From NCBI RefSeq assembly GCF_001428305.1, contig NZ_LMRZ01000004.1:407399-471398 (forward strand): a stretch of 64,000 nucleotides of DNA, in the 5' to 3' direction. Below the pieces are notes generated by a model. That model did not search any database, was not told the origin of the DNA, and saw only the letters and a program-made list of their open reading frames with translations. This document shows positions 2,106 to 62,951 of this stretch, piece by piece. Position 1 is the stretch's first letter. Each line of letters begins with the position of its first letter. The DNA comes from Janibacter sp. Soil728 (GTDB lineage: Bacteria > Actinomycetota > Actinomycetes > Actinomycetales > Dermatophilaceae). The translations under genes were made by a program, and so were the position numbers.

Positions 2106-2557
2106 GTGGCCCGCTCCCGTCCGCCCGTGACCGCCTGGCTGACGAAGGGGGGACTGCCGTCATCGAGTTCGTCTGGCTGGCGGTTCTGCTGCTCGTCCCG
2201 CTCATCTATCTGGTCCTGTGCCTCGCCCGTCTGCAGGCGGGGTCCTATGCCGTGACCCAGGCTGCGCGCGAGTCGGCACGTGCCTTCGTCACCGCATCCG
2301 ACGACGCTTCGGCAGACGCCCGTTCCCATGCCGCAGCCGACATCGCCTTCGAGGACCAGGGCTTCGCCGGTGGCGGGTCGCTCACGGTGAGCTGCTCCGC
2401 GACGCCGTGCTTGTCACCGGGGGAGTCGGTGACGACGCGGGCAGCGGTGAGCGTCCCCCTTCCGCTCGTCCCGGCATTCTTGGGCGACTCGGTGCCCTTG
2501 CAGATCCCGGTCTCCGCGACTCAGGTGGCTCCCGTGCCGCGGTACGAGGTCCGATGA
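2102..2557 (+). CDS. TadE/G-like pilus-assembly protein
   Basis: 151-residue second pseudopilin-like protein. The GTG at 2102 overlaps the previous stop (GTGA) and is chosen over upstream starts that would run through the tadE-like gene. The N-terminus reads DEGGTAVIEFVW and is followed by a hydrophobic helix (residues 22-42), then YAVTQAARESARAF, a stretch typical of TadE-family proteins just after the helix. Two cysteines (SCSATPC) in the outer domain could form a disulfide, which is unusual for this family. It is the central member of three overlapping pilin-like genes. Confidence 0.68.
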   Translation: MSGPLPSARDRLADEGGTAVIEFVWLAVLLLVPLIYLVLCLARLQAGSYAVTQAARESARAFVTASDDASADARSHAAADIAFEDQGFAGGGSLTVSCSATPCLSPGESVTTRAAVSVPLPLVPAFLGDSVPLQIPVSATQVAPVPRYEVR

Positions 2558-3036
2558 CCTCCCTTCGACATGCCGTGCGCACGCGGTGGCGTGACGACCG
2601 CGGGCAGCTGAGCGTCCTCGTCCTCGGGCTGACCGTCATCGCGATGACCCTGATCATCGGAGGGTTGGCGGTCACCTCCGTGCAGATCTCTCGCATGCGG
2701 CTGCTCGACGTGGCCGACTCCGCCGCGCTCGGAGCCACCGATGACGGTGCCGAGAGGATCTATGACGAAGGGGTGGGGGCCGACCTTCCGCTCGACGACA
2801 CCACTGTCCGCGAGAGCGCAGCGACCCACCTGTCCGAGAGGTCACGTCCCCACGGGCTGGAGAGCTGGGCGGTCGCGCCGGGAACCGGCAGCCCTGACGG
2901 ACGCACCGCCGTCGTGGTGTTGACGGGGGAGGCGGACCTGCCCCTCATCGGCGGTCTGCTGCAGTCGATGGGTGGGTCGGTCACGGTGACTGTCGAGTCG
3001 AGGGCCCGGGCTGGCGTCGTCTCCGACCAGGAGTGA
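2554..3036 (+). CDS. TadG-like (Rv3660c-cluster type) pilus protein
   Basis: 160-residue protein with N-terminal DDRGQLSVLVLG, a hydrophobic helix near residues 22-44 and then LLDVADSAALGATD, the signature of TadG/Flp-pilus assembly proteins, where a TadE-like segment precedes the extracellular domain. The ATG overlaps the preceding stop (ATGA). It is much shorter than full TadG, which carries a von Willebrand domain, as is common for actinobacterial Tad loci. It ends the first Tad locus. A 146-nt gap without any clear signal separates it from the next gene. Confidence 0.65.
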   Translation: MTSLRHAVRTRWRDDRGQLSVLVLGLTVIAMTLIIGGLAVTSVQISRMRLLDVADSAALGATDDGAERIYDEGVGADLPLDDTTVRESAATHLSERSRPHGLESWAVAPGTGSPDGRTAVVVLTGEADLPLIGGLLQSMGGSVTVTVESRARAGVVSDQE

Positions 3037-3182
3037 GCAGCGACGGTCGGCTGGGGGCGTCCCTCCGCCTCGCGCGGTCGTCGCAACCCAACCTCGAGCC
3101 TGCTGCGCTCCCACGTGACAGTCCGAGGTGACACGATGACGGCGCGGGGAGACCGCACCATTCGTTCGGGAGAGGCACGCGC

Positions 3183-4544
3183 GTGGAGCAGGAGCTGTCT
3201 GGGGATAAGTCCCTGACGCATGGGGCCGACGAGGATGAGTCCACCGAAGCCGGGTCGACCTCCGGCCCGACGGTCGAGTCCGAGATCACGGACGAGCCGA
3301 GCGGCACCGATTCAGCAGCAGCTGAGCCAGCTGCCACCGACCGCGGGGACACCGACGAGGTCGTCCACACCAGCGACGGCGAGGTCATCCCCGAGCACGT
3401 GGCGGCGTCCGACGCCGAGACGATCCCGGTGAGCGAGCTGCGCACACCCGAGCGAGAGCACGAGCACGACGAGCTCCCGATCAAGGCGAGGGTCTCGCTG
3501 CCCCCGACCCTCACCCTTCTCCTCGGCCTGGCTGCCACCGTCATCGCGATCGCCGGTCTCAAGCAGGTTGCCGGCATCGTCGCCCCGACCTTCCTCGCTG
3601 CAACGCTGATCATCGCCGTCTACCCGATCTACAAGACGCTGCGCCGTTTCCTCGGGGGAGCGATCGCCGGGCTGCTGCTCATCGTGATCCTCTACGGGAT
3701 CCTCGCGGCACTGGGCGCCTCGATCGGCATCGCCGCCAGCAAGTTCGCCTCCGAGCTCGCCCGGCCCGAGTACACGAGCACCTTCACCGGCATCGTCTCC
3801 GACGGTCGCGACTTCCTGACCTCCAAGGGGATCGAGGCCCAGGAGATCGACGACGCGATCGCCAACTTCGACCTGCGCAACCTCACCGGCCTCGCGAGCT
3901 CGCTGGCCAACACGGTCACCGGACTGACCACGACCATGCTCTTCCTGCTGACGGTGATGATCTTCCTCGTCATGGACGCCGGTGGGTTCGCTCGGCGCCT
4001 CGCGGCGATCCACCGGCACAAGCCGGATGTCGCCGATGCGCTCGTCGACTTCGGCTACCGGGTGCGCAAGTACTGGATCGTCTCGACGGTCTTCGGTGTC
4101 ATCGTCGCCGTCATCGACTACCTGGCGCTGATGTGGCTCGGCGTGCCGCTCGCGATGACCTTCGGCCTCTTGTCCTTCGTGACCAACTACATCCCCAACA
4201 TCGGCTTCGTCCTCGGCCTGATACCGCCGGCCTTCATCGCGCTGCTCTCCGGAGGGGTGTCGACGATGGTGTGGGTCATCGTCGTGTACTCCGTCGCCAA
4301 CTTCCTCATCCAGACGATCCTGCAGCCGAAGTTCACGGGGGACGCGGTCGGCATCAACGGCAGCACCGCCTTCTTGTCGCTCGTGTTCTGGGCCTACGTC
4401 TTCGGCGCGCTCGGTGCCCTGCTCGCGATCCCCTTCACGCTCCTCTTCAAGAGCCTGCTCATCGATCGGGACCCCAGCGCTCGGTGGGTCAACCAGTTCA
4501 TCGCCAGCTCCCCGGAGGAGGGGACGAGCGCGCAGCCCCTGTGA
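3183..4544 (+). CDS. AI-2E family transporter (PerM/TqsA-like)
   Basis: 453-residue polytopic membrane protein. About 100 N-terminal residues are acidic and low in complexity (Glu, Asp, Ser, Thr), probably disordered in the cytoplasm. They are followed by eight or so hydrophobic segments and the family's conserved late region (SFVTNYIPNIGFVLGLIPPA, then LQPKFTGDAVGINGSTAFLSL). Members of PF01594 export autoinducer-2 in some bacteria and act as sodium/proton antiporters in others, so the substrate is open. The GTG start is supported only by the extent of the open frame. It stands alone between Tad locus 1 and prfB, with unrelated neighbours. Confidence 0.85.
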   Translation: MEQELSGDKSLTHGADEDESTEAGSTSGPTVESEITDEPSGTDSAAAEPAATDRGDTDEVVHTSDGEVIPEHVAASDAETIPVSELRTPEREHEHDELPIKARVSLPPTLTLLLGLAATVIAIAGLKQVAGIVAPTFLAATLIIAVYPIYKTLRRFLGGAIAGLLLIVILYGILAALGASIGIAASKFASELARPEYTSTFTGIVSDGRDFLTSKGIEAQEIDDAIANFDLRNLTGLASSLANTVTGLTTTMLFLLTVMIFLVMDAGGFARRLAAIHRHKPDVADALVDFGYRVRKYWIVSTVFGVIVAVIDYLALMWLGVPLAMTFGLLSFVTNYIPNIGFVLGLIPPAFIALLSGGVSTMVWVIVVYSVANFLIQTILQPKFTGDAVGINGSTAFLSLVFWAYVFGALGALLAIPFTLLFKSLLIDRDPSARWVNQFIASSPEEGTSAQPL

Positions 4545-4598
4545 CTTCGGGGTGTCGTGGGCGCCTGAGTATGGACTGCTCAGCCCGGCGCGCAGGTC

Positions 4599-4614
4599 AC
4601 GTCGTCGACGACGT
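4599..4614. repeat. 16-bp perfect palindrome downstream of the AI-2E gene
   Basis: ACGTCGTCGACGACGT reads the same on both strands. It lies 55 nt after the AI-2E transporter stop in the 250-nt gap before prfB. It could be a stop hairpin for transcription (no T tract follows) or an operator; nothing else in the gap is recognisable. Part of the palindromic character comes from the common GTCGTC/GACGAC words of GC-rich DNA. Confidence 0.35.
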
Positions 4615-6164: not shown

Positions 6165-6848
6165 ATGACCGCAGGACCGCAGACCGAGGTGCCCGCGCAT
6201 CCGGCTGTCCCGCCCGCGCCCGAGCAGGTCGGGGCCGTCAAGCCTCGTCGCAACGTGCGCCTGGTGCTTCTCGGAGTGGCTTTGGCCGTTGTTTTCGCGC
6301 TCCTTGCCGTCTGGGCCGTGAACCGCGCCGGGGAGGCTCGCAGCGTCGTTGTCGTCAGCAAGGACATCCGCGCTGGGGACCAGATCGCCTCCTCCGACCT
6401 GGCCACGACCCAGCTGCGTGGTGGTGAAGACGTGGAGACGGTGCCGTCCTCCAAGCTCAACTCTCTCGTCGGCAAGCGCGCAGAGCAGGCCATGCCGGCC
6501 GGGACGCTTGTCACCGAGTCCGACTTCGAAAACCGCATCACCCCCCGGTCGGGAGATGCCATCGTCCCCATCGCCGTCACCTCCGGTCAGTTCCCGGCCA
6601 GCGGTCTGCAGCGCGGCGACGTGGTCCGTGTGGTCGTGACCGGTGGCGGTCAGAACATCGAGGGCCTCGAGCCCGGGACATCCTTCAGCGGGGTCGTCCT
6701 CGCCCTGGGGACGCCCGACGACAAGGGAGGCATGACGGTCGACGTCTCCATCTCATCGGCCGACGCCCCGTCCGCGGCGGCAGCTGCCGGTACCGGCCGG
6801 ATCGCCATCATCAATGTCGCACCGGGCGGCACGGGTCAGGAAGGCTGA
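6165..6848 (+). CDS. cpaB: SAF-domain protein, CpaB/RcpC-like pilus protein
   Basis: 227 residues: a Pro-rich cytoplasmic N-terminus (1-27), one membrane helix (about 31-50), then a SAF domain (about 58-125; VVVSKDIRAGDQIASSDLATTQ, ending AMPAGTLVTESDF), then a beta-rich region. CpaB/RcpC proteins act at the outer face of Tad systems and can bind cell-wall glycans. The ATG at 6165 has GGGGGAG 9 nt upstream; a longer in-frame start lacks such a site. It is the first gene of the second Tad locus and is followed after 3 nt by the TadZ-like gene. In a Gram-positive cell it probably faces the peptidoglycan. Confidence 0.75.
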   Translation: MTAGPQTEVPAHPAVPPAPEQVGAVKPRRNVRLVLLGVALAVVFALLAVWAVNRAGEARSVVVVSKDIRAGDQIASSDLATTQLRGGEDVETVPSSKLNSLVGKRAEQAMPAGTLVTESDFENRITPRSGDAIVPIAVTSGQFPASGLQRGDVVRVVVTGGGQNIEGLEPGTSFSGVVLALGTPDDKGGMTVDVSISSADAPSAAAAAGTGRIAIINVAPGGTGQEG

Positions 6849-6851
6849 CTC

Positions 6852-7643
6852 GTGGCCCTGCACATCCTCACCTCCCTCAGCGGGTCACCGGGCGTCACCT
6901 CGACTGCCATGACCTGGGCCCAGGTCAGCGACCGGCCGACCCTGCTCGTCGAGGCCGACCCGGCGGGCGGCTCGCCGATGCTGTGCATCGGATGGGGCGG
7001 GTCGCACCCGCACAACAGGTCGATCCTCGACCTGGCCGCTCATCCACCCGGCGAGTACGTCGAGAGGATCTGGGAACTCGCGATCCCGCTGCCCGGGCGC
7101 GAGCGTAAGGCCTGGCTGGTGCCCACCGTGGGCACGACCGCGCAGATGCGGTCCCTGATGAGCGTCTTCGGTCCGCTGGGCGAGGCGCTCGCGCGCATCA
7201 GCCGCGACAGCCATGTCGATGTCCTCGTGGACCTCGGCCGGCTCGGCGCAGCAGGCGCATCCACGCAGCTGTGGGCGCACGCCGACACCGTCCTGCTCTT
7301 CACCGACAGCACGCTGCAGGCGCTCAACACCCTCGCCGTCGGTGCCCCGTCGCTCGTGGACGAGCTCGATGGCATCGGAGCGCGGCACCGGCTCGCGGTC
7401 GTCCCCGTCCTCGGCGACGAGAAGGGAGCCTCCAACCGTCCGTACGGGATGCGCGAGATCAGCGGCATCACCGGCGGAGTCACCGTCCTGCCCGGTGTCG
7501 CACGCGATACCAAGGCCGCAGGGTCGCGCACCTGGGGCAAGCGAGGTCGGTACCCGGTCAGCGTCAAGCGGCTCATCGCCAGCGTTGACCAGCACGCTCG
7601 CGCGGCCAATGACGTCATGGGCGTCGGGGGAGCCACCGCATGA
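6852..7643 (+). CDS. tadZ: TadZ/CpaE-like MinD-superfamily protein with degenerate P-loop
   Basis: 263 residues with the MinD/ParA fold pattern: an N-terminal strand and loop (LTSLSGSPGVTSTAMTWA), then LLVEADPAGG (switch I-like) and VLVDLGRLG (switch II-like). The loop lacks the deviant Walker A lysines, so ATP hydrolysis is doubtful. TadZ proteins are known to tolerate such loss and to place the Tad machine at a cell pole. It overlaps the TadA ATPase gene by 4 nt and follows the SAF gene closely, the normal order for actinobacterial Tad loci. Start is GTG. Confidence 0.75.
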   Translation: MALHILTSLSGSPGVTSTAMTWAQVSDRPTLLVEADPAGGSPMLCIGWGGSHPHNRSILDLAAHPPGEYVERIWELAIPLPGRERKAWLVPTVGTTAQMRSLMSVFGPLGEALARISRDSHVDVLVDLGRLGAAGASTQLWAHADTVLLFTDSTLQALNTLAVGAPSLVDELDGIGARHRLAVVPVLGDEKGASNRPYGMREISGITGGVTVLPGVARDTKAAGSRTWGKRGRYPVSVKRLIASVDQHARAANDVMGVGGATA

Positions 7644-9331
7644 GCCCCAAGTCGACGCCTGATCCGACCCAACCAACGGACCTGCCGATCTTCGCCCAGC
7701 GTCCGGCGCCCCCTTCGCGGGCACTCGGAGGGGCCGCTCCCTTCGCCCAGCGTCAAGGGGCCATGCCTCCGCCCCCACCGCCTGCCTCCTACGGCTCGAC
7801 GCCGCAGACGCCCGGCGCCCACGCGGCACCCGAGTCCACAGCTCCGCGCTCGACGCTGCGAGCGAACCAGCCACCGGCGCCAGCAGGCGAAGTCGCCCAC
7901 GCCGACAACGAGGACCGGGGTCCGGTCGGCAGTCGTCAGTACCAGATCCGCGAGGCGCTCGACCGGCTCAAGCGAGTGGACTGGGCAGCGGTCCAGCACC
8001 TGCGCAGCCAGGTCAGCGCTGCGCTGACCCTCGTGTCGGAGGACACCGTCCTCGATGAGTCGCGCCACCGCACGACAGTCACTCGGATGACCATGCAGGC
8101 CATCGACGACTGGTCCCAGGACCGCATCGCACGCGGCGAGGGTGTGGTCTCCCTCGACGCCCAGGCGGCGCTGCGCGAGGCAGTGCTCGACTCGATGTTC
8201 GGGGCAGGGCGGCTGCAGCCGCTCCTCGACCTCCCGGGGATCGAGAACATCGAGATCGAGGGCCACGACGGAGTCACCCTCGAGTTCAGCGATGGCTCCC
8301 TCGAGGCGGGTCCGCCTGTCGCCGACAGCGACGCCGACCTCATCACCGAGATCCAGCACATCGCGCGCACGTCAGCCACGGGCGAGCAGCAGTTCTCCAT
8401 GGTCCGTCCGTGGCTGCGCCTCGCGCTGCCCGACGGCTCGCGCATGGCGGCCGAGGCGTGGCTGTCGCACCGCCCCTCCATCACGATCCGCAAGCACCCC
8501 TACATCGACACCGACCTGGCCCAGATGAAGGAGCTCGGGGCGATCGACGACTCCCTGCAAGCCTTCCTCTCCGCCGCGATCCGCGCCGGCAAGAACGTCA
8601 TGGTGTCCGGGGACGCCGGATCGGGCAAGACCACCCTCGTGCGTGCCCTGCTCAACGAGCTCGACCCGCGTGAGCGACTGGCGACCATCGAGGCCCAGTA
8701 CGAGTTGCTCATGCACCGCCTGCCCGAACGACACCACCGGGTGTGGGCGGCTGAGGCCCAAGGCGGGGGAGAAGTGGGCGCCGACGGCCGTCCCGTCGGC
8801 GAGGTGACCCTGACCAGGCTCATCGAGCTCAGTCTGCAGAAGAACGTCACTCGCATCGTCGTCGGCGAAGTGGTCGGAGAAGAGGTCATGGCGATGATGG
8901 AGGCCATGCAGGGCGGCCGCGGCTCGATCTCGACCGTGCACGCCCACTCGGCCCTCGACACCGTCGAACGCCTCGTCACCCTCATCACCCGCGCCCGGAG
9001 CAATGTCGACACCTCCTTCGGGTACCGCCTCGTCGCGCAGAACGTCGACCTCGTCGTCCACGTCGGTCTCGTCGACGAGTCGCACCTCGACGGCGGCCGC
9101 AAGTGGCGCCACGTCGACGAGGTCGTGGCCCTGGAGGTCTCCCGCGACACTCACGTGGCCCACACCCGGATCTTCTCCCCGGACGACTTCGGTCGGGCCT
9201 GCCCGACCGGTCAGCTGCCGGAGTGGATCAACGACATCGAGCGACACGGGTTCGACGCCGGTTGGCTGGACCCCGCAGCGAGCACCTGGGGCGCTCCGCC
9301 CGAGCTGCTCATCCGGCACAGGACGGCGTGA
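7640..9331 (+). CDS. tadA: TadA/CpaF secretion ATPase
   Basis: 563-residue hexameric motor ATPase of the Tad pilus. Residues 1-85 are Pro/Ala-rich and probably disordered. The N-terminal domain follows, then Walker A GDAGSGKTT near 323-331, the Asp/Glu-box region, a Walker B-like strand RIVVGEVVGEEV near 405-416 and the His-box STVHAHS near 430. All motifs for ATP hydrolysis are present. It powers pilin extrusion through the TadB and TadC platform encoded directly downstream. It overlaps tadZ at its start and tadB at its stop. It is the only Tad ATPase visible in the window, so it may also serve the first locus. Confidence 0.93.
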   Translation: MSPKSTPDPTQPTDLPIFAQRPAPPSRALGGAAPFAQRQGAMPPPPPPASYGSTPQTPGAHAAPESTAPRSTLRANQPPAPAGEVAHADNEDRGPVGSRQYQIREALDRLKRVDWAAVQHLRSQVSAALTLVSEDTVLDESRHRTTVTRMTMQAIDDWSQDRIARGEGVVSLDAQAALREAVLDSMFGAGRLQPLLDLPGIENIEIEGHDGVTLEFSDGSLEAGPPVADSDADLITEIQHIARTSATGEQQFSMVRPWLRLALPDGSRMAAEAWLSHRPSITIRKHPYIDTDLAQMKELGAIDDSLQAFLSAAIRAGKNVMVSGDAGSGKTTLVRALLNELDPRERLATIEAQYELLMHRLPERHHRVWAAEAQGGGEVGADGRPVGEVTLTRLIELSLQKNVTRIVVGEVVGEEVMAMMEAMQGGRGSISTVHAHSALDTVERLVTLITRARSNVDTSFGYRLVAQNVDLVVHVGLVDESHLDGGRKWRHVDEVVALEVSRDTHVAHTRIFSPDDFGRACPTGQLPEWINDIERHGFDAGWLDPAASTWGAPPELLIRHRTA

Positions 9332-10182
9332 TGACCGGCTTGGCGATCATTGCCGCACTCGGTCTCGCCGCGGCCCTCACTCTCATCGCCGCGGGGCTGA
9401 CGACGCCACCCCGGGCTCCGACGCGTCCGCGTGCCCGCCGCAAGCAGAGCGCGACCTTCAGCCCCGTCGACCGTCGCAACCTCGCCATCGGTGGCGTGGT
9501 CGGCCTCCTGCTGGCCCTCTACGGGTGGGTCATCGCATTGATCATCTTCCCCGTCTTTGCCGTGGCTCTTCCGTGGCTGATGCGCATCGACCGAGGCACG
9601 ACCCCCGAGCAGCTCGAGGCGGTCGAGGAGTGGGTCCGCTCCCTCTCGGGTGTCATCGGTGCGGGTCAGGGCATCGCCGGCGCGATCATCGCGACCCGGG
9701 TGTCATGCCCCGACCAGATCCGACCCCAGGTCGACCTGCTCATCAGCCGCATCCACGCCCGCAGGCCCCTGGCGGACGCCCTGTACGCCTTCGCCGACGA
9801 CGTCGACAACCAGATCGGCGACTTCGTCGCGACGGCCCTGATCCAGGCCGCCCAGCACGAGGGTGCTGGCCTGCGTGAGGCACTCGGCGGGATCGCCGCC
9901 GACGTCACCGAGGAGGTGCGTGCTCGGCGCGACATCGAGGCCTCGCGCGCCGGTGCGCGCACTCAGGCCCGACTCATCACCGTCGTGGTCATCGGCGTGC
10001 TGGCCCTCTTCGTCTTCTTCACGCCCATCGGGGCGCAGTACCGCTCACCCAACGGTCAAGCCGGTCTGCTGATCCTGTCCTTCCTCTTCCTCGGAGCCCT
10101 GTACTGGCTCAAGCGGGTGGCGACGGTCAAGCCCCTCGCTCGCTTCCTCGTGCGTCCCGTCGTGACGGACGTACAGCGATGA
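9331..10182 (+). CDS. tadB: TadB-like type II secretion F-domain protein
   Basis: 283 residues. One N-terminal helix (3-24), two helices near 50-82, a cytoplasmic F-domain (LEAVEEWVRSLSGVIGAGQG ... ALIQAAQHEGAGLREAL) and two C-terminal helices near 213-230 and 242-260. It forms the inner-membrane platform with the next gene product. The ATG at 9331 overlaps the tadA stop by one base and is chosen over a frame-open extension that would overlap tadA by more than 200 nt. It is a paralogue in role of the truncated gene at the left edge, though the two are clearly diverged. Confidence 0.85.
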   Translation: MTGLAIIAALGLAAALTLIAAGLTTPPRAPTRPRARRKQSATFSPVDRRNLAIGGVVGLLLALYGWVIALIIFPVFAVALPWLMRIDRGTTPEQLEAVEEWVRSLSGVIGAGQGIAGAIIATRVSCPDQIRPQVDLLISRIHARRPLADALYAFADDVDNQIGDFVATALIQAAQHEGAGLREALGGIAADVTEEVRARRDIEASRAGARTQARLITVVVIGVLALFVFFTPIGAQYRSPNGQAGLLILSFLFLGALYWLKRVATVKPLARFLVRPVVTDVQR

Positions 10183-11069
10183 GCCCGCTGGTGCTGGCCA
10201 TGGCGATCTCGGCGATCGCGGGTATCGGCGTGGCACTGGTCGTTGCCGGGCTCACACCCGCGAAGCCCGACCTGAGTGCAGCGGTCGACCGGATGCGCCC
10301 CCGGACGCTACGGGAGAGCCGGGCCACGCAGGTCGTGCCGACGGACCGGACGCGGACCGAGACCATCGGAGCCTGGGCGCGGCACCGCACCGATCGGTAT
10401 GCCGTCCTCAAGGCCCCGCTCGAGGACCTCGAGCTCCTGCAGGTCCCGGTCGAGGAGCACTACGGCAAGAAGGCGATCGCGGCCGGCGCCGCCCTCGTCG
10501 GCTGCACCCTGCTGCCGATGGTCCTCGGATTCGGCTTCGTCATCCCCTTCGGCATCGGTCTGGCCTTCGCGGTCTTCGCCTGGTTCGTGCCTGACCTGAC
10601 GGTCCGAGACCGCGCCAAGAACAGTCGTGAGGACTTCGCCTACGCGGCGGTCTCCTACCTGCGCCTGGTCGCCATCGCTCGACGGGCCGGGCTCGGCCTC
10701 GTCGCCTCGCTCGACTCCGCCGCCCGCAAGTCGGACTCGTGGATGTTCTTGCGCATCCGCGAGGAGCTGCGTCTGGCGCGGTGGTCCGGCGAGACGTCGT
10801 GGGACGCCTTGGAGCGGTTGGCCGGACGGACCAAGGTGCCCGAGCTGAAGGAGGTCGCCGACATCATCCGTCTCGCCAACGACTCCGGAGCGAGCGTCAG
10901 CGACAACCTGCTCGCGCGCGCTGCCTCCATGCGTGATCGGCTGCTCACCCGGGAGCAGACCGCCGCCAACTCGGCCACGAGCTCGATGGGCATCCCCCTC
11001 GCGGCTCTGGCCGTCCTCTTCCTCATCGCCATGCTCATCCCCGCTGCCATGCAGCTCTCCCCAGGCTGA
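10179..11069 (+). CDS. tadC: TadC-like type II secretion F-domain protein
   Basis: 296 residues: N-terminal helix (2-22), two helices near 104-138, then the F-domain with FAYAAVSYLRLVAIARRAGLGLVASLDSAA and a C-terminal helix near 272-292. Start overlaps tadB by 4 nt. Together with TadB it makes the platform on which TadA acts. After the stop there are 48 nt with a strong AGGAGGA site before the flp gene, which lets pilin be translated at its own, probably higher, rate. Confidence 0.85.
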   Translation: MSPLVLAMAISAIAGIGVALVVAGLTPAKPDLSAAVDRMRPRTLRESRATQVVPTDRTRTETIGAWARHRTDRYAVLKAPLEDLELLQVPVEEHYGKKAIAAGAALVGCTLLPMVLGFGFVIPFGIGLAFAVFAWFVPDLTVRDRAKNSREDFAYAAVSYLRLVAIARRAGLGLVASLDSAARKSDSWMFLRIREELRLARWSGETSWDALERLAGRTKVPELKEVADIIRLANDSGASVSDNLLARAASMRDRLLTREQTAANSATSSMGIPLAALAVLFLIAMLIPAAMQLSPG

Positions 11070-11117
11070 ACCATCCGACCTTCGGCACACTAGACACCAA
11101 CACATCAGGAGGAACCC

Positions 11118-11333
11118 GTGATTCGCTCGCTCGTCTTCATCTCCATGCTCTGCATGGCCCCCGTCCGTCACCTCGACCGCGCGCTCGAGGCGCGTGGTCA
11201 GGACCCGGAAGCCGGCCTGACCACCCTCGAGTACGTCATCCTCGGCGCTCTGGTCCTGGCTGTCGTGGTCACTGTCGCCGCCGTCATCACGGGCAACCTC
11301 GAGAGCTGGGCCAACCAGATCCCGAGCCCCTGA
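11118..11333 (+). CDS. flp: Flp-type major pilin
   Basis: 71-residue prepilin. The processing site G-LTTLEY has the canonical Glu (+5) and Tyr (+6), followed by a 20-residue hydrophobic helix (YVILGALVLAVVVTVAAVI). Cleavage would give a mature pilin of about 36 residues. The leader, about 35 residues, is longer than usual and begins with its own hydrophobic stretch (residues 1-13). AGGAGGA lies 6 nt before the GTG start. Compare the flp-like gene at 1489, which lacks the Glu/Tyr pair: this is the only typical Flp in the window. No prepilin peptidase (TadV) gene is visible. Confidence 0.88.
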   Translation: MIRSLVFISMLCMAPVRHLDRALEARGQDPEAGLTTLEYVILGALVLAVVVTVAAVITGNLESWANQIPSP

Positions 11334-11347
11334 GAGAGCTCGCGACG

Positions 11348-11758
11348 GTGAATCCAGGACGACCAGCAGTGACTCGCCACCCTCGTCGGCTCCGGGCCGA
11401 GTCGGGGGCGGTGACGCTGGAGGGCGCCATCATGGCGCCGGTCGTCATCCTGGCGACGATGATCATCGTCCAGGCAGCGTGCTATTTCATGGCCAACACG
11501 ACGGCCACCAACGCCGCTCAGATCTCGGCAGAGATGGCGCGGGTGCGCGGGGCGACGGACACGGACGGGGTGCAGGCCGGTCGTGACTACCTGGCCGACA
11601 TCGACGCGATGTCGCAGGCGACGATCAGCGTCACCCGGTCCGGAGGCAGGGTCACTGCGACGGTGACGGCACCGGCGCCGTCCATCGTGCCGATTGTCCC
11701 GATGCCCGACGTGCGGTCCGAGATCAACGTCCCGGTGGAGCGGGTGACCCGTCAATGA
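11348..11758 (+). CDS. TadE-like pseudopilin
   Basis: 136 residues. ESGAVTLEGAIMAPVV at residues 18-33 is a TadE-type start of the helix, with Glu at the +5-like position, followed by hydrophobic residues to about 50, then a small outer domain with repeated Val/Thr strands. It is encoded 14 nt after flp and overlaps the next gene by 4 nt. Probably a minor pilin that initiates or stabilises the fibre. The helix contains one Cys (QAACYF). Confidence 0.72.
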   Translation: MNPGRPAVTRHPRRLRAESGAVTLEGAIMAPVVILATMIIVQAACYFMANTTATNAAQISAEMARVRGATDTDGVQAGRDYLADIDAMSQATISVTRSGGRVTATVTAPAPSIVPIVPMPDVRSEINVPVERVTRQ

Positions 11759-15322: not shown

Positions 15323-15421
15323 CGCGCCGAGGTCACACGGGTGTCACGAGCGTGCAGCGAAGCGGCATATCCTGCAGGCGGCCATTTACCCCCTTCGTCC
15401 CCCTGAGGCCCCGAGCAGCTG

Positions 15422-18610: not shown

Positions 18611-18701
18611 GCCGTCGCCTGCGACAAACCGGCGGGACCTTGGCCGGGGTCACGGGGTACCGTGGCCCGTCAGCACGTCGGACCCGCGAAGGGGGAGCAC
18701 C

Positions 18702-19922: not shown

Positions 19923-20010
19923 GGAGTCCTCCTGTTGGTGGGTGGTCCTCCACGCAACCACAGGTCGAACCCGGGCGCCACCCCTCGACGTGATGACGGG
20001 CGAAGGGGGA

Positions 20011-29286: not shown

Positions 29287-29332
29287 GACGAAGGGGAGCG
29301 GCCCACCACGTGGTGGGCCGTTCCCCGTCGTC
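29287..29332. terminator. Hairpin terminator after hpd
   Basis: Two 23-nt arms meeting at CCACCACGTGGTGG, with two non-Watson-Crick positions near the base. The left arm begins GACGAAGGGG and the right arm ends CCCCGTCGTC, so the window-wide word forms the stem base, here with one arm mutated. It lies 18 nt after the hpd stop. Confidence 0.85.
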
Positions 29333-53788: not shown

Positions 53789-54820
53789 ATGGACGCGCGA
53801 CTGCCCGCCCCCCTTCGTCCCGGCGACACGATCGCCGTCACCGCACCGAGCAGCGGTGTCCCCCAAGCGCTCTGGCCCCGTCTGGACGCCGCGATCGCAC
53901 ACCTGCGGCGTCGCGGCTTCGAGGTGCTCGAAGGGGTCTGCCTGCGCGATGCCGACGACCACCACGTCAGTGCCTCGCGGGAGGCCCGCGCCGACGAGCT
54001 GATGGCCCTGCTCGTCGACCCCGACATCGCCGCCGTCGTCCCGCCGTGGGGCGGTGAGACGGGCATCGACGTCCTGCGGTTCCTGGACTTCGAGCTGCTC
54101 GCCGAGTGCGACCCCTGCTGGTACGTGGGGTTCTCCGACCTCACGACCACGATGCTCCCGCTGACCCTGCGCTCCGGGTGGGCGACGCTCCACGGGCAGA
54201 ACCTCATGGACACGCCCTACGCGCCTGCGTCCGGCCTGCTCCACTGGCTCGACGTCGTGATGAGCGAAGGGGGTGAGCTCACCCAGTCCGCGGCCACCCA
54301 CAAGCGGGCGGAGGGCTGGGACGACTACGTCGCCGACCCGCAGGTCGCCGAGCTGACGCTCAACGACCCGGCCCGGTGGTCACTCCTGGAGGGTGAGGTG
54401 GCGGGCTTCGCCGGCCCGCTCGTCGGTGGGTGCATCGAGGTCCTCTCGCCGCTGGTCGGCACCCCCTTCGCCGACGTGCCCGCGTGGGCCGCCGAGCAGG
54501 CGCAGCCGCCGGTCGTCCTGCTCGAGGCGGCCGAGGGCAATGCCTTCGAGATCGCGCGGGACCTGCACGGGATGCGGCTCGCGGGGTGGTTCGACCGGTG
54601 CTCAGGAGTGCTCGTCGGCCGGACGCCGGCACCGGACGCCCCCACCCTCACCCAGCACGACGCGGTGCGCGACGCCCTCGGAGACCTCGATGTGCCGGTC
54701 GTGCTCGACGTCGACTTCGGCCACCAGCAGCCGATGATGCCGCTCGTCCTCGGGGTGGAGGCCCGGGTCGAGGTCGGACCGGAAGGTCAACGGATCACAC
54801 AGGACCTGGGGCGGTCCTGA
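53789..54820 (+). CDS. S66 family peptidase (LD-carboxypeptidase/MccF-like)
   Basis: 343 residues; an upstream ATG at 53723 would add 22 residues. RPGDTIAVTAPSSG at the start and the nucleophile elbow WYVGFSDLTTTML (Ser in GxSD) are S66 hallmarks, as is GGCIEVLSPLVG and the late DFGHQQPMMPLVLG with the catalytic His. Members cleave L,D bonds in murein peptides or degrade peptide-nucleotide antibiotics such as microcin C. It is divergent from the iron operon. Its end overlaps the convergent hydrolase gene by 26 nt. Confidence 0.9.
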   Translation: MDARLPAPLRPGDTIAVTAPSSGVPQALWPRLDAAIAHLRRRGFEVLEGVCLRDADDHHVSASREARADELMALLVDPDIAAVVPPWGGETGIDVLRFLDFELLAECDPCWYVGFSDLTTTMLPLTLRSGWATLHGQNLMDTPYAPASGLLHWLDVVMSEGGELTQSAATHKRAEGWDDYVADPQVAELTLNDPARWSLLEGEVAGFAGPLVGGCIEVLSPLVGTPFADVPAWAAEQAQPPVVLLEAAEGNAFEIARDLHGMRLAGWFDRCSGVLVGRTPAPDAPTLTQHDAVRDALGDLDVPVVLDVDFGHQQPMMPLVLGVEARVEVGPEGQRITQDLGRS

Positions 54821-55649
54821 CCCGCTCGAGCACCCAACGCGCGATGCGCTCGCCGATGATCTCGGGGGACCGGGCGAAGGAGTAGTGGTTCACCGGCTTG
54901 CCGGGGTCACCCGCGGCCTTGGCGAAGGTGAACCTCTCGACGTCGGCGCCGACAAACAGAGCGACGAGCGCGTCCACGGCCGCCGGGGGAGCGAGGGAGT
55001 CGTTGTCGAGGTCGACGACGAGCATCGGGAGCCGTCGATCACGCAGGCCGGTGGTGACGTCCTGGCGGCGAGGGGCGAGACGACCGGTGCGGGCGAAGGC
55101 TGCCCACTCCCGCATGAGCGTCATCGGCTGGGTGCCGCCGAAGCCGAGCCGTGCGCCGGGCCAGTACCCCAGCACCCGCGAGACCGTCCCGATGAACTGG
55201 GTCTGGGCCAGCGTCTTGAGCCCCTGCTGGGTGCGCCAGTGCGTGCTCCCCGATCCGATGAGCACCACGGCGTCGACGGCCGGCTGGTCACCGGACAGGT
55301 GGGTGGCGAGGACGTGGCCACCGAGGGAATGGCCGAGCGCGACGACCGGGCCGGGGTGCTCTCGACGCACCGACTCCACGACTGCTGGCAGCCACTCGTG
55401 GGCCAGCTCCGTGTAACCGAGGTCCTGACCGCGTCCGGCCAGCGGCCGCGCAGCGCCCTGTCCGGGATAGTCGGCGACGCCCGCCGTCACCCCATGACGG
55501 GCGAGCTCGTCGACGAAGGGTCCGTAGTAGCCCGCCGGCACGCCCATGGCGGGCAGCACGAGGACGAAGGGGGTCGACCCCTCGGCCTGTGCGACGTGCA
55601 GGGCGGTGGTGCCGCCGTCGGGGAGGGTGATCTCGCTGTGCTGGTTCAC
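54795..55649 (-). CDS. Alpha/beta hydrolase
   Basis: 284 residues. Nucleophile elbow GHSLGG in VVALGHSLGGHVLATHLSG; acid in MLVVDLDNDSLAP; His in KPVNHYSFARSPE; oxyanion strand VLVLPAMGVPAGYYGPFVDEL. The GTG at 55649 is preferred; the frame remains open upstream only as a shadow. Substrate unknown. It overlaps the S66 gene at its 3' end and is separated by 26 nt from the glycosyltransferase gene on the same strand. Confidence 0.85.
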   Translation of the reverse strand: MNQHSEITLPDGGTTALHVAQAEGSTPFVLVLPAMGVPAGYYGPFVDELARHGVTAGVADYPGQGAARPLAGRGQDLGYTELAHEWLPAVVESVRREHPGPVVALGHSLGGHVLATHLSGDQPAVDAVVLIGSGSTHWRTQQGLKTLAQTQFIGTVSRVLGYWPGARLGFGGTQPMTLMREWAAFARTGRLAPRRQDVTTGLRDRRLPMLVVDLDNDSLAPPAAVDALVALFVGADVERFTFAKAAGDPGKPVNHYSFARSPEIIGERIARWVLERVRTAPGPV

Positions 55650-55675: not shown

Positions 55676-57421
55676 TCAGCCGGAGCGCCGGTCGGCGTCC
55701 GCGATGGCCTCCACGACGGCCTGTTCGACGGCGGGCCGCTGCTGGGCGAACTGTGGCCCCGTCACCAGGATCCTCTTGACGAAAGGAAAGCCGGCGTCGA
55801 GCAGCTCGTGCCACCCGTGCAGCGTCAGGTCGACCGTCTCCGGGACGCCCAGCTCGGCGTGGCTCCACCCGACATCGCGGGTGAGGCCACCGCGGTCGAC
55901 GGCCTCGGTCAGCCCCACCTCGTACGCGCGCACGACGGCACTCTTGGACTCCAGAGCCGTCACATCGCTCCAGAAGGTGGCCAACGGCCCGCGCGCGAGG
56001 ACACCTCCGCGGAAGGCCAGCAGGTAGCTCTGCAGGTGCTCGGCCGGCCAGCGGTTGGCCGTGGCCCCCCAGACGTCGGTCGTGCTGTTGACCAGCCGAC
56101 CCAGCAGCTCGTCCAGAGGTGCGAGCGGCCCGATGAGGGAGTCGTTGGTGAGGACGACGAGGTCCTGGTGCGCGAGCTCGGGCCACGTGCGCAGGGCGTA
56201 CGCCCATGAGCCGAAGTCGTAGGCCGTGTTGCCACGGCGCGTCACGGCCACACCGATGGGCACGTCGGTGTGGCGCAGCCGGACCCACGGGTCCCGGGCG
56301 GCCACCACGAGCACACCGAAGCCTGCATCGGCCCAGGCGCGGGCTGCTCGCAGCGCGTCGGGCCGGACCGCTGCGCCGGCGGACCACTCGGCCAGCACCA
56401 CGACCCGATCCCGACCGAGCACGTCGTCGAGCTCGCCGCCGACGAGTCCCTCGCGGACGGGCAGACGCTCGTTGGCCCACCGCTTGAGCGACCACCGCGC
56501 GTCGCGCAGGCGTCTGCGGGTCTCCTGCTCCCAGTCCTGCACCCGATCGGTGAGCGTCGGCGCCCCGCTCTCCTGCGCCCGCTCGTGCGTGCCCCGCAGG
56601 GTCCACGCCGTGGCCTCCGCGGCCTTGGTCAGCTCACCGGGGTGGGCGGCCCACAGCGAGGTGAGTCGTCCGAGCTGCCGGACCCGGCCGCGGGCGAGGA
56701 CGGTGCGCGACGGGGACGCGTCGTACCCCAGGTCGATCTCGAAGCGCTCGCCGACCACCCTGGGATGGACGCGCACGCCGTTGACGATGTTGGACACGTT
56801 GCTCCCGTGGAGAACCTGGGCCCACATCGGCGGGGCGGCGACCTCACGCAACCGGCCGTGCCCACGTGCGCGGGCGTGCTTGGTGACGTAGACCGTCGCC
56901 GGCGGCTCGCCGTCACGGCGGGCCTCGATGAGCGAGAGGAAGGGGTTGGAGAGCACATCGCAGCGGTGGACGGCCCCGCTGCGCTCGATCTGGATCCCTC
57001 GGGGGAAGCCGACGAAGAGCTGCGGCTGCTCGACGAACTGGGCCTGCACGGACGCCATGAAGTCCACTGCGATGGCGTCGTCGCTGTCCATGCGGGTGGT
57101 GATGACGAAGGGGGCATGGCTGCGGACCGCGACGTGCTCGGCGAAGCTGTCGCGACGGAAGGGCTCGTGGGTCCAGATCGGGGTGAAGGTGCCCTGGGCG
57201 AGCTCCTCGACCTCGTCTCGGAACCCCGCAGAGCAGCGGTCGTCGAGCAGGACGAGCCACTCGAAGCCCTGACCGCCTCGCTGGGAGAGCACCGACGGGA
57301 GAGCCGCGTCGACGAAGAACCCGAGCCGGTAGTAGAGCCAGTCCTCGCTCGCCGGGGCGGCATCGGGTGCCATCACCGCGCTGAAGCGCGTCAGCAGGAA
57401 GTGATCGAAGGGAGCGCCCAC
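55676..57421 (-). CDS. Two-domain glycosyltransferase: rhamnosyltransferase-like plus RgpF-like
   Basis: 581 residues. The start is GTG at 57421, giving the family N-terminus GAPFDHFLLTRFS. Part one (about 1-290) is like putative rhamnosyltransferases: FEWLVLLDDRCSAGFRDEV, FVITTRMDSDDAIAVDFM. Part two (about 335-581) matches rhamnan synthesis protein F: VVVLAEWSAGA, RGNTAYDFGSWAYALRTWPEL, LVVLTNDSLIGPL and DVGWSHAELGVPETVD. It probably builds a rhamnose-containing cell-surface polymer, yet no other polysaccharide gene is near. It is divergent from rph, with 33 nt between starts. Confidence 0.8.
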   Translation of the reverse strand: MGAPFDHFLLTRFSAVMAPDAAPASEDWLYYRLGFFVDAALPSVLSQRGGQGFEWLVLLDDRCSAGFRDEVEELAQGTFTPIWTHEPFRRDSFAEHVAVRSHAPFVITTRMDSDDAIAVDFMASVQAQFVEQPQLFVGFPRGIQIERSGAVHRCDVLSNPFLSLIEARRDGEPPATVYVTKHARARGHGRLREVAAPPMWAQVLHGSNVSNIVNGVRVHPRVVGERFEIDLGYDASPSRTVLARGRVRQLGRLTSLWAAHPGELTKAAEATAWTLRGTHERAQESGAPTLTDRVQDWEQETRRRLRDARWSLKRWANERLPVREGLVGGELDDVLGRDRVVVLAEWSAGAAVRPDALRAARAWADAGFGVLVVAARDPWVRLRHTDVPIGVAVTRRGNTAYDFGSWAYALRTWPELAHQDLVVLTNDSLIGPLAPLDELLGRLVNSTTDVWGATANRWPAEHLQSYLLAFRGGVLARGPLATFWSDVTALESKSAVVRAYEVGLTEAVDRGGLTRDVGWSHAELGVPETVDLTLHGWHELLDAGFPFVKRILVTGPQFAQQRPAVEQAVVEAIADADRRSG

Positions 57422-58213: not shown

Positions 58214-58851
58214 CCCGGCGGGTCGTCCTCGCGACGCACAACGAGCACAAGGTGAGGGAACTTCAGCAGATCCTCGCGGAAGCCCTTGGTCCTGAGGCCG
58301 GGCTGGGCCTCGAGATCGTCTCGATGGCGGCCTTCCCCGAGGTCGGTGAGATCCCCGAGACTTCAGTGACGTTCGCCGGCAACGCCCGGCTCAAGGCCGA
58401 GCACGTCGCGATGCGCACCTCGCTCCCGGCGCTCGCGGACGACTCAGGGCTCGCTGTCGAGGTCCTCGGCGGCAGCCCCGGGATCTTCTCCGCCCGTTGG
58501 TCGGGTCTGCACGCGGGGGAGGACCTGCCCCGCGCCGAGAAGGACCGGCGCAACCTCCAGCTGCTCCTCGACCAGCTCGCAGACGTCCGCGACGAGCACC
58601 GCCGCGCGGCCTTCCGGTGCGCGGCCGTCCTCGCGATCCCCGGTGGCACGACGGTCACGAGCGAAGGGGAGGTCCCCGGAGTGATCGTGCGGGAACCCTT
58701 GGGGGACAACGGCTTCGGTTACGACCCGATCTTCGTGCCGGACGGCGACACCCGAACCCTCGCCCAGTACACCGACGTGGAGAAGAACGCGATCAGCCAC
58801 CGCGGCCGCGCCTTCCGCGCGATGGTCCCGCTCCTGCGCGAGCACCTGTAA
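58210..58851 (+). CDS. rdgB: XTP/dITP diphosphatase (RdgB/HAM1)
   Basis: 213 residues. Removes inosine and xanthosine triphosphates. [18 protein letters not shown] gives the T-x-N-x-x-K substrate site; [37 protein letters not shown]-like [14 protein letters not shown] and [14 protein letters not shown] are conserved. Start GTG overlaps the rph stop. The small hairpin at 58868 probably ends its transcript. Confidence 0.97.
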
Positions 58852-60260: not shown

Positions 60261-61018
60261 CGGGACACCATCGCAGCCACGAGCACGACGGCCGCAGCCA
60301 GTGGCAGCGTCATGGCGATGAGCCACGCCCGCAGGACGACGGCGATCGGCTCGACATGCATGTGACCGTCGTGGCCTCGCGACAGCATCGCCAGGTGCAC
60401 GCGCTCGCCCCGCTCGTACGAGCGGATGAAGAGAGCCCCGGCCGTGCTCGCCAGGACCGGCCACGACCGCAACCCGCCGCCGCGGAAGCCCCGCGACTCC
60501 CGGGCCACCCGCATCGCCTGCAGCTGCCCGCTGATGACATCGGCGTAGCGGACCATGAAGCCGAGGATGAGCACCAGCTGAGCTGGCAGCCGCAGTCGCG
60601 CCAACCCCGAGACGATGTCGGCGGGCTGCGTGGTCGCCGCGAGGAGCAGCGAGGCGCCCACCCCGAGCGTGCCCTTGGCCAGCAGGTTCCAGGCGCCCCA
60701 CAGTCCCGGCTCCGAGAGGGTCAGCGGTCCGATGTCGACCCGTGGTCCGGTCGCGACGAAGGGCATGAGTGCGGCGAAGATGACGAAGGGGACCTCGATG
60801 AGCAGTCGAGGAGCCAGGTGCCGCAGCGGGACCCGGCTCGCGAGGATCACGCCGAGCAGCAGCAGCGCATGGACCCCGAAGGCCCAGATCGCCTCCCGCG
60901 GTGTCGCGACGACGGCGATGACGAAGAGCAGCGTGGCGAGGATCTTCAGGTGCGCCGGCATGGCCTGCAGCCACGACCTCCCGTGGTGGGCCAGCGCGTG
61001 GTGGTGGGAACCGGCCAC
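60257..61018 (-). CDS. cbiQ: Cobalt/nickel ECF transporter membrane protein CbiQ
   Basis: 253 residues with five or six helices. The coupling motifs are present: ARESRGFRGGG (first A-R-G type coupling helix) and LMLSRGHDGHM-like LAMLSRGHDG (second), which contact CbiO. Starts one base after the cbiN stop region. No odd features. Confidence 0.93.
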   Translation of the reverse strand: MAGSHHHALAHHGRSWLQAMPAHLKILATLLFVIAVVATPREAIWAFGVHALLLLGVILASRVPLRHLAPRLLIEVPFVIFAALMPFVATGPRVDIGPLTLSEPGLWGAWNLLAKGTLGVGASLLLAATTQPADIVSGLARLRLPAQLVLILGFMVRYADVISGQLQAMRVARESRGFRGGGLRSWPVLASTAGALFIRSYERGERVHLAMLSRGHDGHMHVEPIAVVLRAWLIAMTLPLAAAVVLVAAMVSR

Positions 61019-61019
61019 C

Positions 61020-61325
61020 TCAGTCGCGACGACGGACGACGAGGCGCAGCAGGAGCCACATCAACGCGCCGGTGAGCAGGACGCCGACGACACCGGCGAG
61101 GCCACCGGAGAGGAAGCCGCTGTCGACCCCCTTCGTCCCGTAGTCGGCGAAGGGGGAGCCGGCACTGCCGTGGTCCCCGGCCGAGTCGGCGAAGCCGAGC
61201 GTCTCGGCGACGTGCTCGAGCCCGTCGGGGTGGCCGGACACCCAGAAGCTCACGATCGCGGCGAGCAGCAGGCAGACGGCCAGGCCCCCCAGGACGAGGG
61301 TGCGCGTGGAGATGCGCTGCTTCAC
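61020..61325 (-). CDS. cbiN: CbiN-like PDGLE-domain protein
   Basis: 101 residues, two helices (about 10-29 and 74-95) joined by an outer loop that begins with SGHPDGLEHVAETLGF, the PDGLE motif of this family. CbiN helps load the metal into CbiM. It overlaps cbiM by 4 nt. The loop segment with GTKGVD and GSPF is encoded by two CGAAGGGGG words 20 nt apart in opposite orientation. Confidence 0.9.
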   Translation of the reverse strand: MKQRISTRTLVLGGLAVCLLLAAIVSFWVSGHPDGLEHVAETLGFADSAGDHGSAGSPFADYGTKGVDSGFLSGGLAGVVGVLLTGALMWLLLRLVVRRRD

Positions 61326-62014: not shown

Positions 62015-62071
62015 GCGACTCCTTCACGGCGGTGCGCGCTGGGATAGTTTGGGGCGCGTCCACCGACCATA

Positions 62072-62087: not shown

Positions 62088-62106
62088 GCACAGAGAGCGA
62101 GGCGAC

Positions 62107-62577
62107 ATGGGCGAGCGGCTCACCCCGGGCGATCAGGCTCCGGACTTCACCCTTCCCGACGACACCGGCGGGCAGGTGTCGCTGAGCGACTTCCGCGGCA
62201 AGCGGGTGATCGTCTACTTCTACCCGGCGGCGATGACGCCGGGGTGCACCAAGCAGGCCTGCGACTTCAGCGAGTCGCTCGAGGCGCTGCGCGCGAGCGA
62301 CACGGAGGTCGTCGGCATCTCGCCGGACACGCCGGAGAAGCTCGCCAAGTTCCGCGAGCGAGATGGCTTGACCATCACCTTGCTCTCCGATGCCGACAAG
62401 TCGGTGATGACGGCCTGGGGCGCATATGGTGAAAAGAAGTTGTACGGCAAGGTCGTGCAGGGCGTCATCCGCTCTACGATCGTCGTCGGACAAGATGGTG
62501 TGGTCACCCACGCCCAGTACAACGTCAAGGCGACGGGCCACGTGGCCCGTGTCCGCCGTGACCTCGGCATCGAGTAA
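62107..62577 (+). CDS. bcp: Thioredoxin-dependent peroxiredoxin (Bcp/PrxQ)
   Basis: 156 residues. DFTLPDDTGGQVSLSDFRGKRVIVYFYPAAMTPGCTKQACDFSESL has the peroxidatic Cys in TPGCT and the resolving Cys five residues later, as in BCP. Reduces peroxides using thioredoxin (a candidate is encoded at 20011-20382). ATG at 62107 with GCGAGGCGAC before it. Divergent from the metal importer. Confidence 0.95.
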   Translation: MGERLTPGDQAPDFTLPDDTGGQVSLSDFRGKRVIVYFYPAAMTPGCTKQACDFSESLEALRASDTEVVGISPDTPEKLAKFRERDGLTITLLSDADKSVMTAWGAYGEKKLYGKVVQGVIRSTIVVGQDGVVTHAQYNVKATGHVARVRRDLGIE

Positions 62578-62592
62578 GGACGGAACCACCAC

Positions 62593-62895
62593 GTGAGCAA
62601 TGACAACCCGAGCATGACGAAGCTCGAGAACGACATCGTCACGACCCGTGACCGGCTCGCCCAGACGATCGACGAGCTGAGCGTTCGCGCGGCTCCCAAG
62701 AACGTCATCGCGCGGCAGAAGGAGCAGGCCAAGGTCACCTTCACCAAGGCGACGCGGACCGAGTCAGGCGAGCTACGCATGGACCGGGTGGCGATCGCCG
62801 CGGCGGCCGTCGTCGGGCTCGTCGTGCTGAAGATCGTCTCGGCCAACCGCAAGCAGAAGAAGTGGGAGCGCCAGCGCGCCAAGCGTTCCTGGTGA
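62593..62895 (+). CDS. DUF3618 domain protein
   Basis: 100 residues. LENDIVTTRDRLAQTIDELSVRAAPKNVIARQKEQAK is the DUF3618 signature (amphipathic helix with D/R/L pattern), followed by one membrane helix (about 67-85) and a very basic tail KQKKWERQRAKR. Function unknown; such proteins are common in actinobacteria near envelope genes. It follows bcp by 15 nt. GTG start. The perfect hairpin at 62910 ends the unit. Confidence 0.88.
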   Translation: MSNDNPSMTKLENDIVTTRDRLAQTIDELSVRAAPKNVIARQKEQAKVTFTKATRTESGELRMDRVAIAAAAVVGLVVLKIVSANRKQKKWERQRAKRSW

Positions 62896-62909
62896 CCTAC
62901 CGCGAGAGC

Positions 62910-62951
62910 GACGAAGGGGGGTCCCGCCGGTTGGCGGGACCCCCCTTCGTC
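62910..62951 (+). terminator. Hairpin terminator after the DUF3618 gene
   Basis: Perfect 19-bp arms beginning GACGAAGGGGGG and ending CCCCCCTTCGTC, loop GGTT. The stem base is two inverted copies of the window-wide word. It lies 14 nt after the DUF3618 stop and upstream of the tRNA-Lys promoter. Confidence 0.88.

Follow-up and report, generated by a model that had tools for sequence, protein, structure and literature searches.

To our knowledge, words that label DNA as "self" for uptake are so far known only from two Gram-negative families. In the Neisseriaceae, the DNA uptake sequence (DUS) is a word of about 10 nucleotides that occurs in thousands of copies, both genic and intergenic, with inverted pairs at terminators and dialects that follow phylogeny; in the Pasteurellaceae, the uptake signal sequence (USS) has a 9-mer core and two dialects and allows homologous DNA to be taken up preferentially (PMC3630211 and PMC12616744, respectively). 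Here we describe a word that resembles both, found in a 64,000-nucleotide stretch of Janibacter sp. Soil728 (contig NZ_LMRZ01000004.1, positions 407,399 to 471,398), which we call the window. An earlier note on this stretch had singled out RCGAAGGGG(G) as far too frequent and uptake-sequence-like, a suggestion supported by those hallmarks that can be tested at the sequence level: genome-wide excess, strand balance, many codon registers, intergenic enrichment, inverted pairs, absence from most other lineages, dialects that are lineage-specific, and conservation at the DNA level. Competence genes and Tad/Flp pilus loci are present as well. We propose, with a probability of about 0.8, that RCGAAGGGRR would be the DNA uptake word of Janibacter and its sister genus, one dialect of a family-wide system, probably served by Tad/Flp pili together with ComEA and ComEC.

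The differences from the described systems concern both word and machinery. The Janibacter word differs from the DUS in its letters, phylum and envelope type; moreover, the DUS dialects all share a CTG core (PMC3630211), whereas the two main words reported here have only R-C-G in common. The DUS reader is the minor pilin ComP of the type IVa pilus (PMC6370729), and none of 16 Janibacter genomes yielded the type IVa marker PilM (PF11104). The Pasteurellaceae again have other words, Gram-negative hosts and a type IV pilus, with ComN (PpdA) as predicted receptor. Since PilM is absent from the 16 Janibacter genomes, which have Tad loci instead, the system is by its machinery no member of the DUS or USS groups. 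An actinobacterial comparison is offered by Micrococcus luteus, which likewise has comEA-comEC and two Tad loci with TadE/TadF/TadG-like genes. There, transformation depends on ComEC and on the two tad clusters alike; deleting comEC or almost any gene of either cluster abolishes it, with a more than 100-fold loss for tadB (PMC4322843). The term "uptake sequence" does not occur in two M. luteus papers searched for it. An open-access literature search that covered few subscription papers or preprints (including the available parts of PMC6370729 and PMC10526031) found no actinobacterial uptake word.

Abundance and consensus of the word

Exact counting gave 45 copies of the 8-mer CGAAGGGG in the window, 23 on the plus and 22 on the minus strand, just as had been counted by eye, and the counts per 10 kb (3, 4, 4, 12, 9 and 8, with 5 in the last 4 kb) were reproduced. 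The earlier note expected about 5 copies; Markov models of order 0, 2, 3 and 4 predict 5.3, 5.9, 6.6 and 10.6 copies, and dinucleotide shuffles of the window contain 3.16 on average and 8 at most. The genome from which the window comes (G000; 3.64 Mb in 10 contigs) holds 2,240 copies (1,140 forward and 1,100 reverse, p 0.41 for strand balance) against 147 (75 + 72) for a reversed control, that is, the same letters read backwards and counted on both strands. The genome-wide density is about one word per 1.6 kb, and the excess of the 9-mer over its reversed control is about 53-fold. In a complete Janibacter relative (G009), sampled as 400 kb in 20 evenly spaced 20-kb stretches, the word accounts for both highest-scoring 8-mers and for the leading 9-mer; among 10-mers only the palindrome ACCCTAGGGT scores above it.

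The core first proposed, RCGAAGGGGG, is indeed enriched in the window (30 copies versus 0.58 expected), but the best working consensus is wider, (G)RCGAAGGGRR, with G or A at each of the last two positions. This form was adopted because, with one letter changed at a time, A at base 8 or 9 is the only clearly tolerated variant (enriched 10-fold and 9-fold, respectively, with no other single-base variant above about two-fold) and because upstream the word prefers G at -2 (75%) and a purine at -1 (75%).

Placement, orientation and conservation

The 291 copies in the G009 sample comprise 208 genic, 82 intergenic and 1 straddling, which corresponds to an intergenic density 4.4-fold the genic one. 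Window copies occupy five of the six codon registers and G009 copies all six, so the word is not confined to one codon frame. Of the two outcomes that the earlier note named as refuting it, a genome-wide count near the background and enrichment in a single codon frame, neither was observed. Of the registers named in the earlier note, AKG (17508), HEGG (37106) and PLR (47361) stand; the copy read as PPSR at 7711 does not clearly lie in such a frame, the site at 7710 being intergenic by our gene calls.

These data bear on the possibility that codon usage, composition or selection for terminators produced the word as a side effect. Some copies do lie in terminator-like hairpins, and the registers are unevenly used. 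Against this, most copies are genic, spread over six registers and both strands, the reversed word remains at baseline, and the word is missing from further high-GC members of the family. The reversed control, the word-free relatives and the six registers refute this explanation.

Neighbouring words within 60 bp of each other in G009 are inverted in 24 cases and direct in 2 (p 1e-5). Adding the 4 pairs of the window gives 28 inverted pairs, 18 of them intergenic, whose arms extend the pairing inward beyond the words by at least 3 bases in 10 cases and by at least 6 in 6. The rightmost pair of the window (62910..62951) begins 14 bases past the gene end at 62895 and folds with -46.5 kcal/mol (z -7.1); it is terminator-like, but has no U-run behind it.

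In E. coli, Chi and the FtsK-orienting polar sequences (KOPS) are also short, over-represented, G-rich and non-palindromic words, and they are strand-biased along the replichores. The Janibacter word is not: with the replication origin of G009 set by dnaA at the chromosome start, 156 of the 291 copies fall on the leading strand (p 0.24), and no ori-to-ter polarity of the KOPS kind was seen. This weakens a second option of the earlier note, a Chi-like recombination hotspot, at which the word would stop or modulate a RecBCD- or AdnAB-type nuclease-helicase and self DNA would be repaired. A short, G-rich, non-palindromic, genus-specific and very frequent word would suit such a role, and Chi words likewise vary between lineages. 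However, the strong leading-strand bias of E. coli Chi is missing here, neither the predominance of inverted pairs nor the intergenic excess is expected of Chi, and the size of the excess over the reversed control also speaks against it; we therefore hold this explanation to be unlikely.

Slightly less likely still is a role as the binding site of a protein that organises or segregates the chromosome (nucleoid-associated, FtsK-guiding or similar). The even spread of the copies would agree with it, since 5-kb bins hold 3.6 words on average with a variance of 3.2, and 3 of the 92 bins contain no word (2.5 expected). Polar guiding words should, however, follow the replichores, which these do not, and inverted pairs together with a clean dialect swap between genera (see below) would be unexpected for a housekeeping binder. 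Lower-GC bins have only a slightly lower word density and therefore provide no independent test of foreign DNA lacking words. Among the smaller contigs of G000, C9 carries 14 words in 20 kb and looks chromosomal, and C10 (8.2 kb, 63% GC) carries 1.

Conservation was assessed by aligning the window with five Janibacter relatives, four of which aligned over more than 36 kb. At covered sites, the word is intact in 32/41 (G012), 13/26 (G005), 12/25 (G014) and 15/34 (G013) cases, compared with fractions of 0.47, 0.20, 0.19 and 0.21 for composition-matched 8-mers (p 6e-5 to 0.0025 across the four). In the same relatives, third codon positions are more conserved inside the words than within 30 bases on either side. 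The word is thus conserved as DNA, since it stays intact above matched 8-mers and its third positions are favoured, and yet it is turning over, as the number of words in 80 kb ranges from 39 to 51 among the aligned relatives.

A second word and a probable dialect switch

Counts of the 9-mer CGAAGGGGG were compared across 147 related genomes, 89 of the family (which we infer to be GTDB Dermatophilaceae) and 58 of other families, and across a phylum-wide sample of 396. Janibacter (g1), placed by a scan of named genomes with ComEC, has 797-1,860 copies in 16 of 16 genomes; J. indicus matches one of them (G006) in 28/28 tested 400-base blocks. The two genomes of the sister genus (g38, including G052) have 1,317 and 1,939 copies, and the other 129 related genomes have at most 80. 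In the phylum-wide sample the 9-mer reaches at most 204 outside G000, in a genome of 8.6 Mb.

A second word, CGGCATAC, emerged when the 20-kb surroundings of comEC from other genera were screened blindly for k-mers; 39 of the 89 family genomes, belonging to 30 of 53 genera by hand count, carry it in 939-4,724 copies. It reaches at most 167 copies in the 58 genomes outside the family, and in the phylum-wide sample it is high only in the family members G047 and G050, with at most 386 elsewhere (control 176). A modest excess (161 versus 30 reversed) appears in G415, a 1.8-Mb genome of family f84, far outside the family. Like the first word, CGGCATAC is found in inverted pairs: in 25 stretches taken from several genera, 17 pairs of neighbours no more than 60 bp apart are inverted and 2 are direct, or 13:2 (p 0.007) after merging an orthologous pair that makes up five of the 17. 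Between genes CGGCATAC is 1.6-fold as dense as within them.

The comEC loci of named organisms hold CGGCATAC 11 times in Knoellia remsis, 10 in Intrasporangium oryzae, 22 in Phycicoccus elongatus, 13 in Humibacillus xanthopallidus (matching G053 in 49/49 tested 400-base blocks), 3 to 16 in Ornithinimicrobium species, 12 in a Terrabacter and 18 in a Tetrasphaera metagenome-assembled genome (MAG). Arsenicicoccus bolidensis has 6 beside 5 CGAAGGGG. None was found in the comEC loci of Intrasporangium flavum (matching G043 in 9/9 blocks) and Dermacoccus abyssi (matching G024 in 20/49, the stretch overlapping only partly). Sub-dialects are also seen: CGGCATCC occurs 56 times in 60 kb of G041 against 5 expected, and the comEC locus of a Phycicoccus MAG has 7 CGGCATTCG beside 8 CGGCATAC.

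The two main words exclude each other, with no genome among the 147 high in both. High in neither are 32 of the 89 family genomes; among these, G031, G062 and G078 hold 202 to 272 CGGCATAC, 4.5 to 5 times the control, and G034 holds 293 against 130. In the 16 Janibacter genomes CGGCATAC stands at 9 to 38 copies, near its reversed control (7 to 29), and hardly any relics of the old word therefore remain. Lineage-specific words and mutually exclusive dialects would also be compatible with a modification or defence mark, in which a methyltransferase or phosphorothioation at the word protects self DNA. Restriction targets are, however, usually depleted rather than enriched, and we rate this mark as very improbable, below the Chi-like and chromosome-organising alternatives above.

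In a tree of 43 ComEC proteins, whose bootstrap is not fully settled, users of CGAAGGGG form one clade (support 100/99) nested among users of CGGCATAC and adjoining a CGGCATAC-bearing MAG (support 95/93), a pattern that we read from the sequences as a dialect switch. The CGGCATAC label requires about 10 changes (gains or losses) on this tree, so losses or regains would have been frequent. A likely history starts with an early CGGCATAC-like word in the family, followed by several losses and single-base shifts, and by one wholesale change to CGAAGGGG before the split of Janibacter and its sister genus, with the leading R-C-G kept. Genus g26 is split, with 19 copies of CGGCATAC in G083 versus 1,062 in G040, which suggests that the word system was lost or acquired recently; G083 has neither word, and no clear substitute was seen in 20 kb of it.

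Competence and pilus genes

The competence genes asked after in the earlier note are at least partly recognisable in G000: comEC scores above the NCBI cut-off, and the gene beside it matches comEA with 93 bits against a cut-off of 152, the gene call being perhaps cut short. At the left end of the window, the first Tad/Flp locus consists of the end of TadB, TadC (T2SSF), a 74-aa gene, TadE, a TadF-like and a TadG-like gene (PF13400). The 74-aa product is Flp-sized and has no family match, and the TadF-like gene is a TadE match below the Pfam cut-off. The gene order resembles tad-1 of M. luteus, and we regard this locus as candidate DNA-capture machinery; by the same analogy, DNA capture in Janibacter would be Tad-based. 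The second Tad locus is probably not needed for the word, because it is patchy in the genus (8 of the 16 Janibacter genomes have its TadZ-like gene at an identity of at least 57%). Outside the window, contig C9 carries a tad-2-like locus with a TadA (TIGR03819), a TadE-like gene (TIGR03816) and a 44-aa Flp-sized gene. Its CpaE-like gene occurs in 16 of 16 Janibacter genomes and in G052, and is too divergent to be judged beyond these. As a side observation, a large protein with a BTAD match lies beside the pilin genes in two Tad loci of the genus (Table 1).

Proposed mechanism and points that weigh against it

The mechanism that we propose for the word as an uptake label involves Janibacter cells that would be naturally competent. 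A surface protein of, or near, the Tad/Flp pilus would bind the word on environmental double-stranded DNA, ComEA/ComEC would import one strand, and RecA would recombine it. Words would spread by molecular drive, because fragments that bear them would be taken up more often, and would be retained wherever the protein or terminator concerned can accommodate them. The swap of CGGCATAC for CGAAGGGG would go back to a receptor that altered its specificity in the common ancestor of Janibacter and its sister genus.

Several observations weigh against this reading. On the side of the machinery, ComEC is present in 82 of 88 relatives, whether word-bearing or not, and no searched Tad gene tracks the word family-wide. 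The tad-1 TadC orthologue occurs in word-negative genera (for example g2 and g3) and is missing from G052 and from G009, the Janibacter genome with the most words of the 16; the second Tad locus and a third one, from G009, are patchy. Compared by presence or absence in a search for the receptor, the first, second and third Tad loci and PilM all fail to track the word. The open-access literature search returned nothing linking Janibacter with natural transformation.

On the side of the word, the six registers of G009 are used unevenly (sense 1/2/0 = 59/33/1; antisense 2/0/1 = 90/14/11), and single-mismatch words show no excess apart from A at base 8 or 9, where drive predicts decayed words. In carriers of CGGCATAC its reversed control is elevated too, reaching 463 copies, and the ratio of word to control is only 2.5-3.1 in G030 (the lowest, 2.5), G077 and G087. 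The four relatives used for the conservation test share ancestry and are thus not independent, and the fifth (G001), aligned over 4 kb only, has 0 of 2 sites intact, with third positions matching in 2/6 cases inside words versus 25/40 in flanks. Finally, most copies of CGGCGTAC in G038 fall into two frames and codon bias may explain them; as a further dialect this word is doubtful.

It seems quite likely, if a shade less so than the uptake role of the Janibacter word itself, that these words form a third, independent and large uptake-sequence group, the first in Gram-positive actinobacteria, based on Tad/Flp rather than type IVa pili. Within one family, about 30 genera would between them use no fewer than two words of very different sequence, along with sub-dialects that differ by a single base; a different family of the order would contribute a third word. 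Before Janibacter and its sister genus parted, CGAAGGGG would have replaced CGGCATAC completely, with hardly any relics. If this is true, the uptake-word trait arose again with different machinery, dozens of genera become available in which to study how a receptor and thousands of words change together (full replacement included), and adding the word to donor DNA may ease the transformation of these environmental actinobacteria.

Other word candidates

The third word is GAGRCATCC, found in G108, a genome of family f19 in the same order: 27 copies versus 0.9 expected, with 0 for the reversed word. The copies come from two far-apart 20-kb stretches (L265 and L293, with 13 and 14), lie on both strands and in several registers, and extend to (C)GAGRCATCC(G), which resembles the G041 dialect (GGCATCC). 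It is likely a third uptake-like word, kept as a lead because one genome and 40 kb were seen. Beyond it, a survey of 20 genomes from 16 other families, with one 20-kb stretch each, in which a rarer word could be missed, gave nothing clear; candidates in G092 and G093 are short tandem repeats. Within the family, a screen of 17 genus groups found no clear word in g2, g3, g9, g10, g11, g14, g15 and g29, and the candidates of g20, g24 and g25 were weak and not counted.

Located features

Table 1. Tad/Flp loci, word copies and other located features. Positions refer to the window unless another stretch is named. Word copies are exact matches to CGAAGGGG combined with gene calls; "intact 4/4", word intact in four of four covered relatives.
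Feature	Position	Strand	Remarks
First Tad/Flp locus	3..3036	+	left end of window
Second Tad locus	6318..15322	+	patchy in Janibacter
tad-2-like locus, contig C9	L291 13274-17768		outside window
BTAD-match protein	12659-15322		887 aa, E 1.3e-4
BTAD-match protein with LysM	G009 L030 9743-12973		1076 aa, E 4.9e-4, below Pfam cut-off
Word	2143..2150	+	TadF-like gene, first Tad locus
Word	2766..2773	+	TadG-like gene
Word	7710..7717	-	intergenic
Word	10544..10551	-	TadC-like (T2SSF) gene, second Tad locus
Word	15390..15397	-	intergenic; intact 4/4
Word	17508..17515	+	genic (AKG register)
Word	18687..18694	+	intergenic, upstream of smpB; intact 4/4
Word	20001..20008	+	intergenic
Word	21970..21977	-	genic
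Word	25545..25552	-	genic; intact 4/4
Word	29289..29296	+	intergenic
Word	31045..31052	+	genic
Word	31716..31723	-	genic
Word	33004..33011	-	genic; intact 4/4
Word	33488..33495	+	genic
Word	34275..34282	-	intergenic
Word	35492..35499	-	genic
Word	36031..36038	-	genic
Word	36953..36960	+	genic
Word	37106..37113	-	genic (HEGG register)
Word	38060..38067	-	genic
Word	39640..39647	-	genic; inverted pair with 39691
Word	39691..39698	+	genic; inverted pair with 39640
Word	41225..41232	+	genic
Word	42548..42555	+	genic
Word	44017..44024	+	genic
Word	45175..45182	-	genic; intact 4/4
Word	46325..46332	+	genic; inverted pair with 46344; intact 4/4
Word	46344..46351	-	genic; inverted pair with 46325; intact 4/4
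Word	47361..47368	-	genic (PLR register)
Word	47989..47996	+	genic; intact 4/4
Word	48691..48698	-	genic
Word	51632..51639	-	genic
Word	53810..53817	-	genic
Word	53929..53936	+	genic
Word	54265..54272	+	genic; intact 4/4
Word	54463..54470	-	genic
Word	55565..55572	+	genic
Word	57106..57113	+	genic
Word	58662..58669	+	genic
Word	60784..60791	+	genic
Word	61128..61135	-	genic; inverted pair with 61148
Word	61148..61155	+	genic; inverted pair with 61128
Inverted word pair	62910..62951	+	perfect 19-bp stem; words 62912-62919 (+) and 62942-62949 (-)
Palindromic repeat, G009	L012 4937, 10367
Palindromic repeat, G009	L023 10027
Palindromic repeat, G009	L026 2929
Palindromic repeat, G009	L028 7319
Palindromic repeat, G009	L029 19410, 19452		close tandem pair
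Palindromic repeat, G009	L030 19070, 19112		close tandem pair

The palindrome that outranks the word among 10-mers belongs to a repeat of about 30 bp (core ACCCTAGGGT, arms like AACTCTGCAAA), absent from the window and present 9 times in the 400-kb sample of G009, twice in close tandem pairs; a tenth core (L031 3527) is flanked differently. It looks like a repetitive extragenic palindrome (REP)-type element of that relative.

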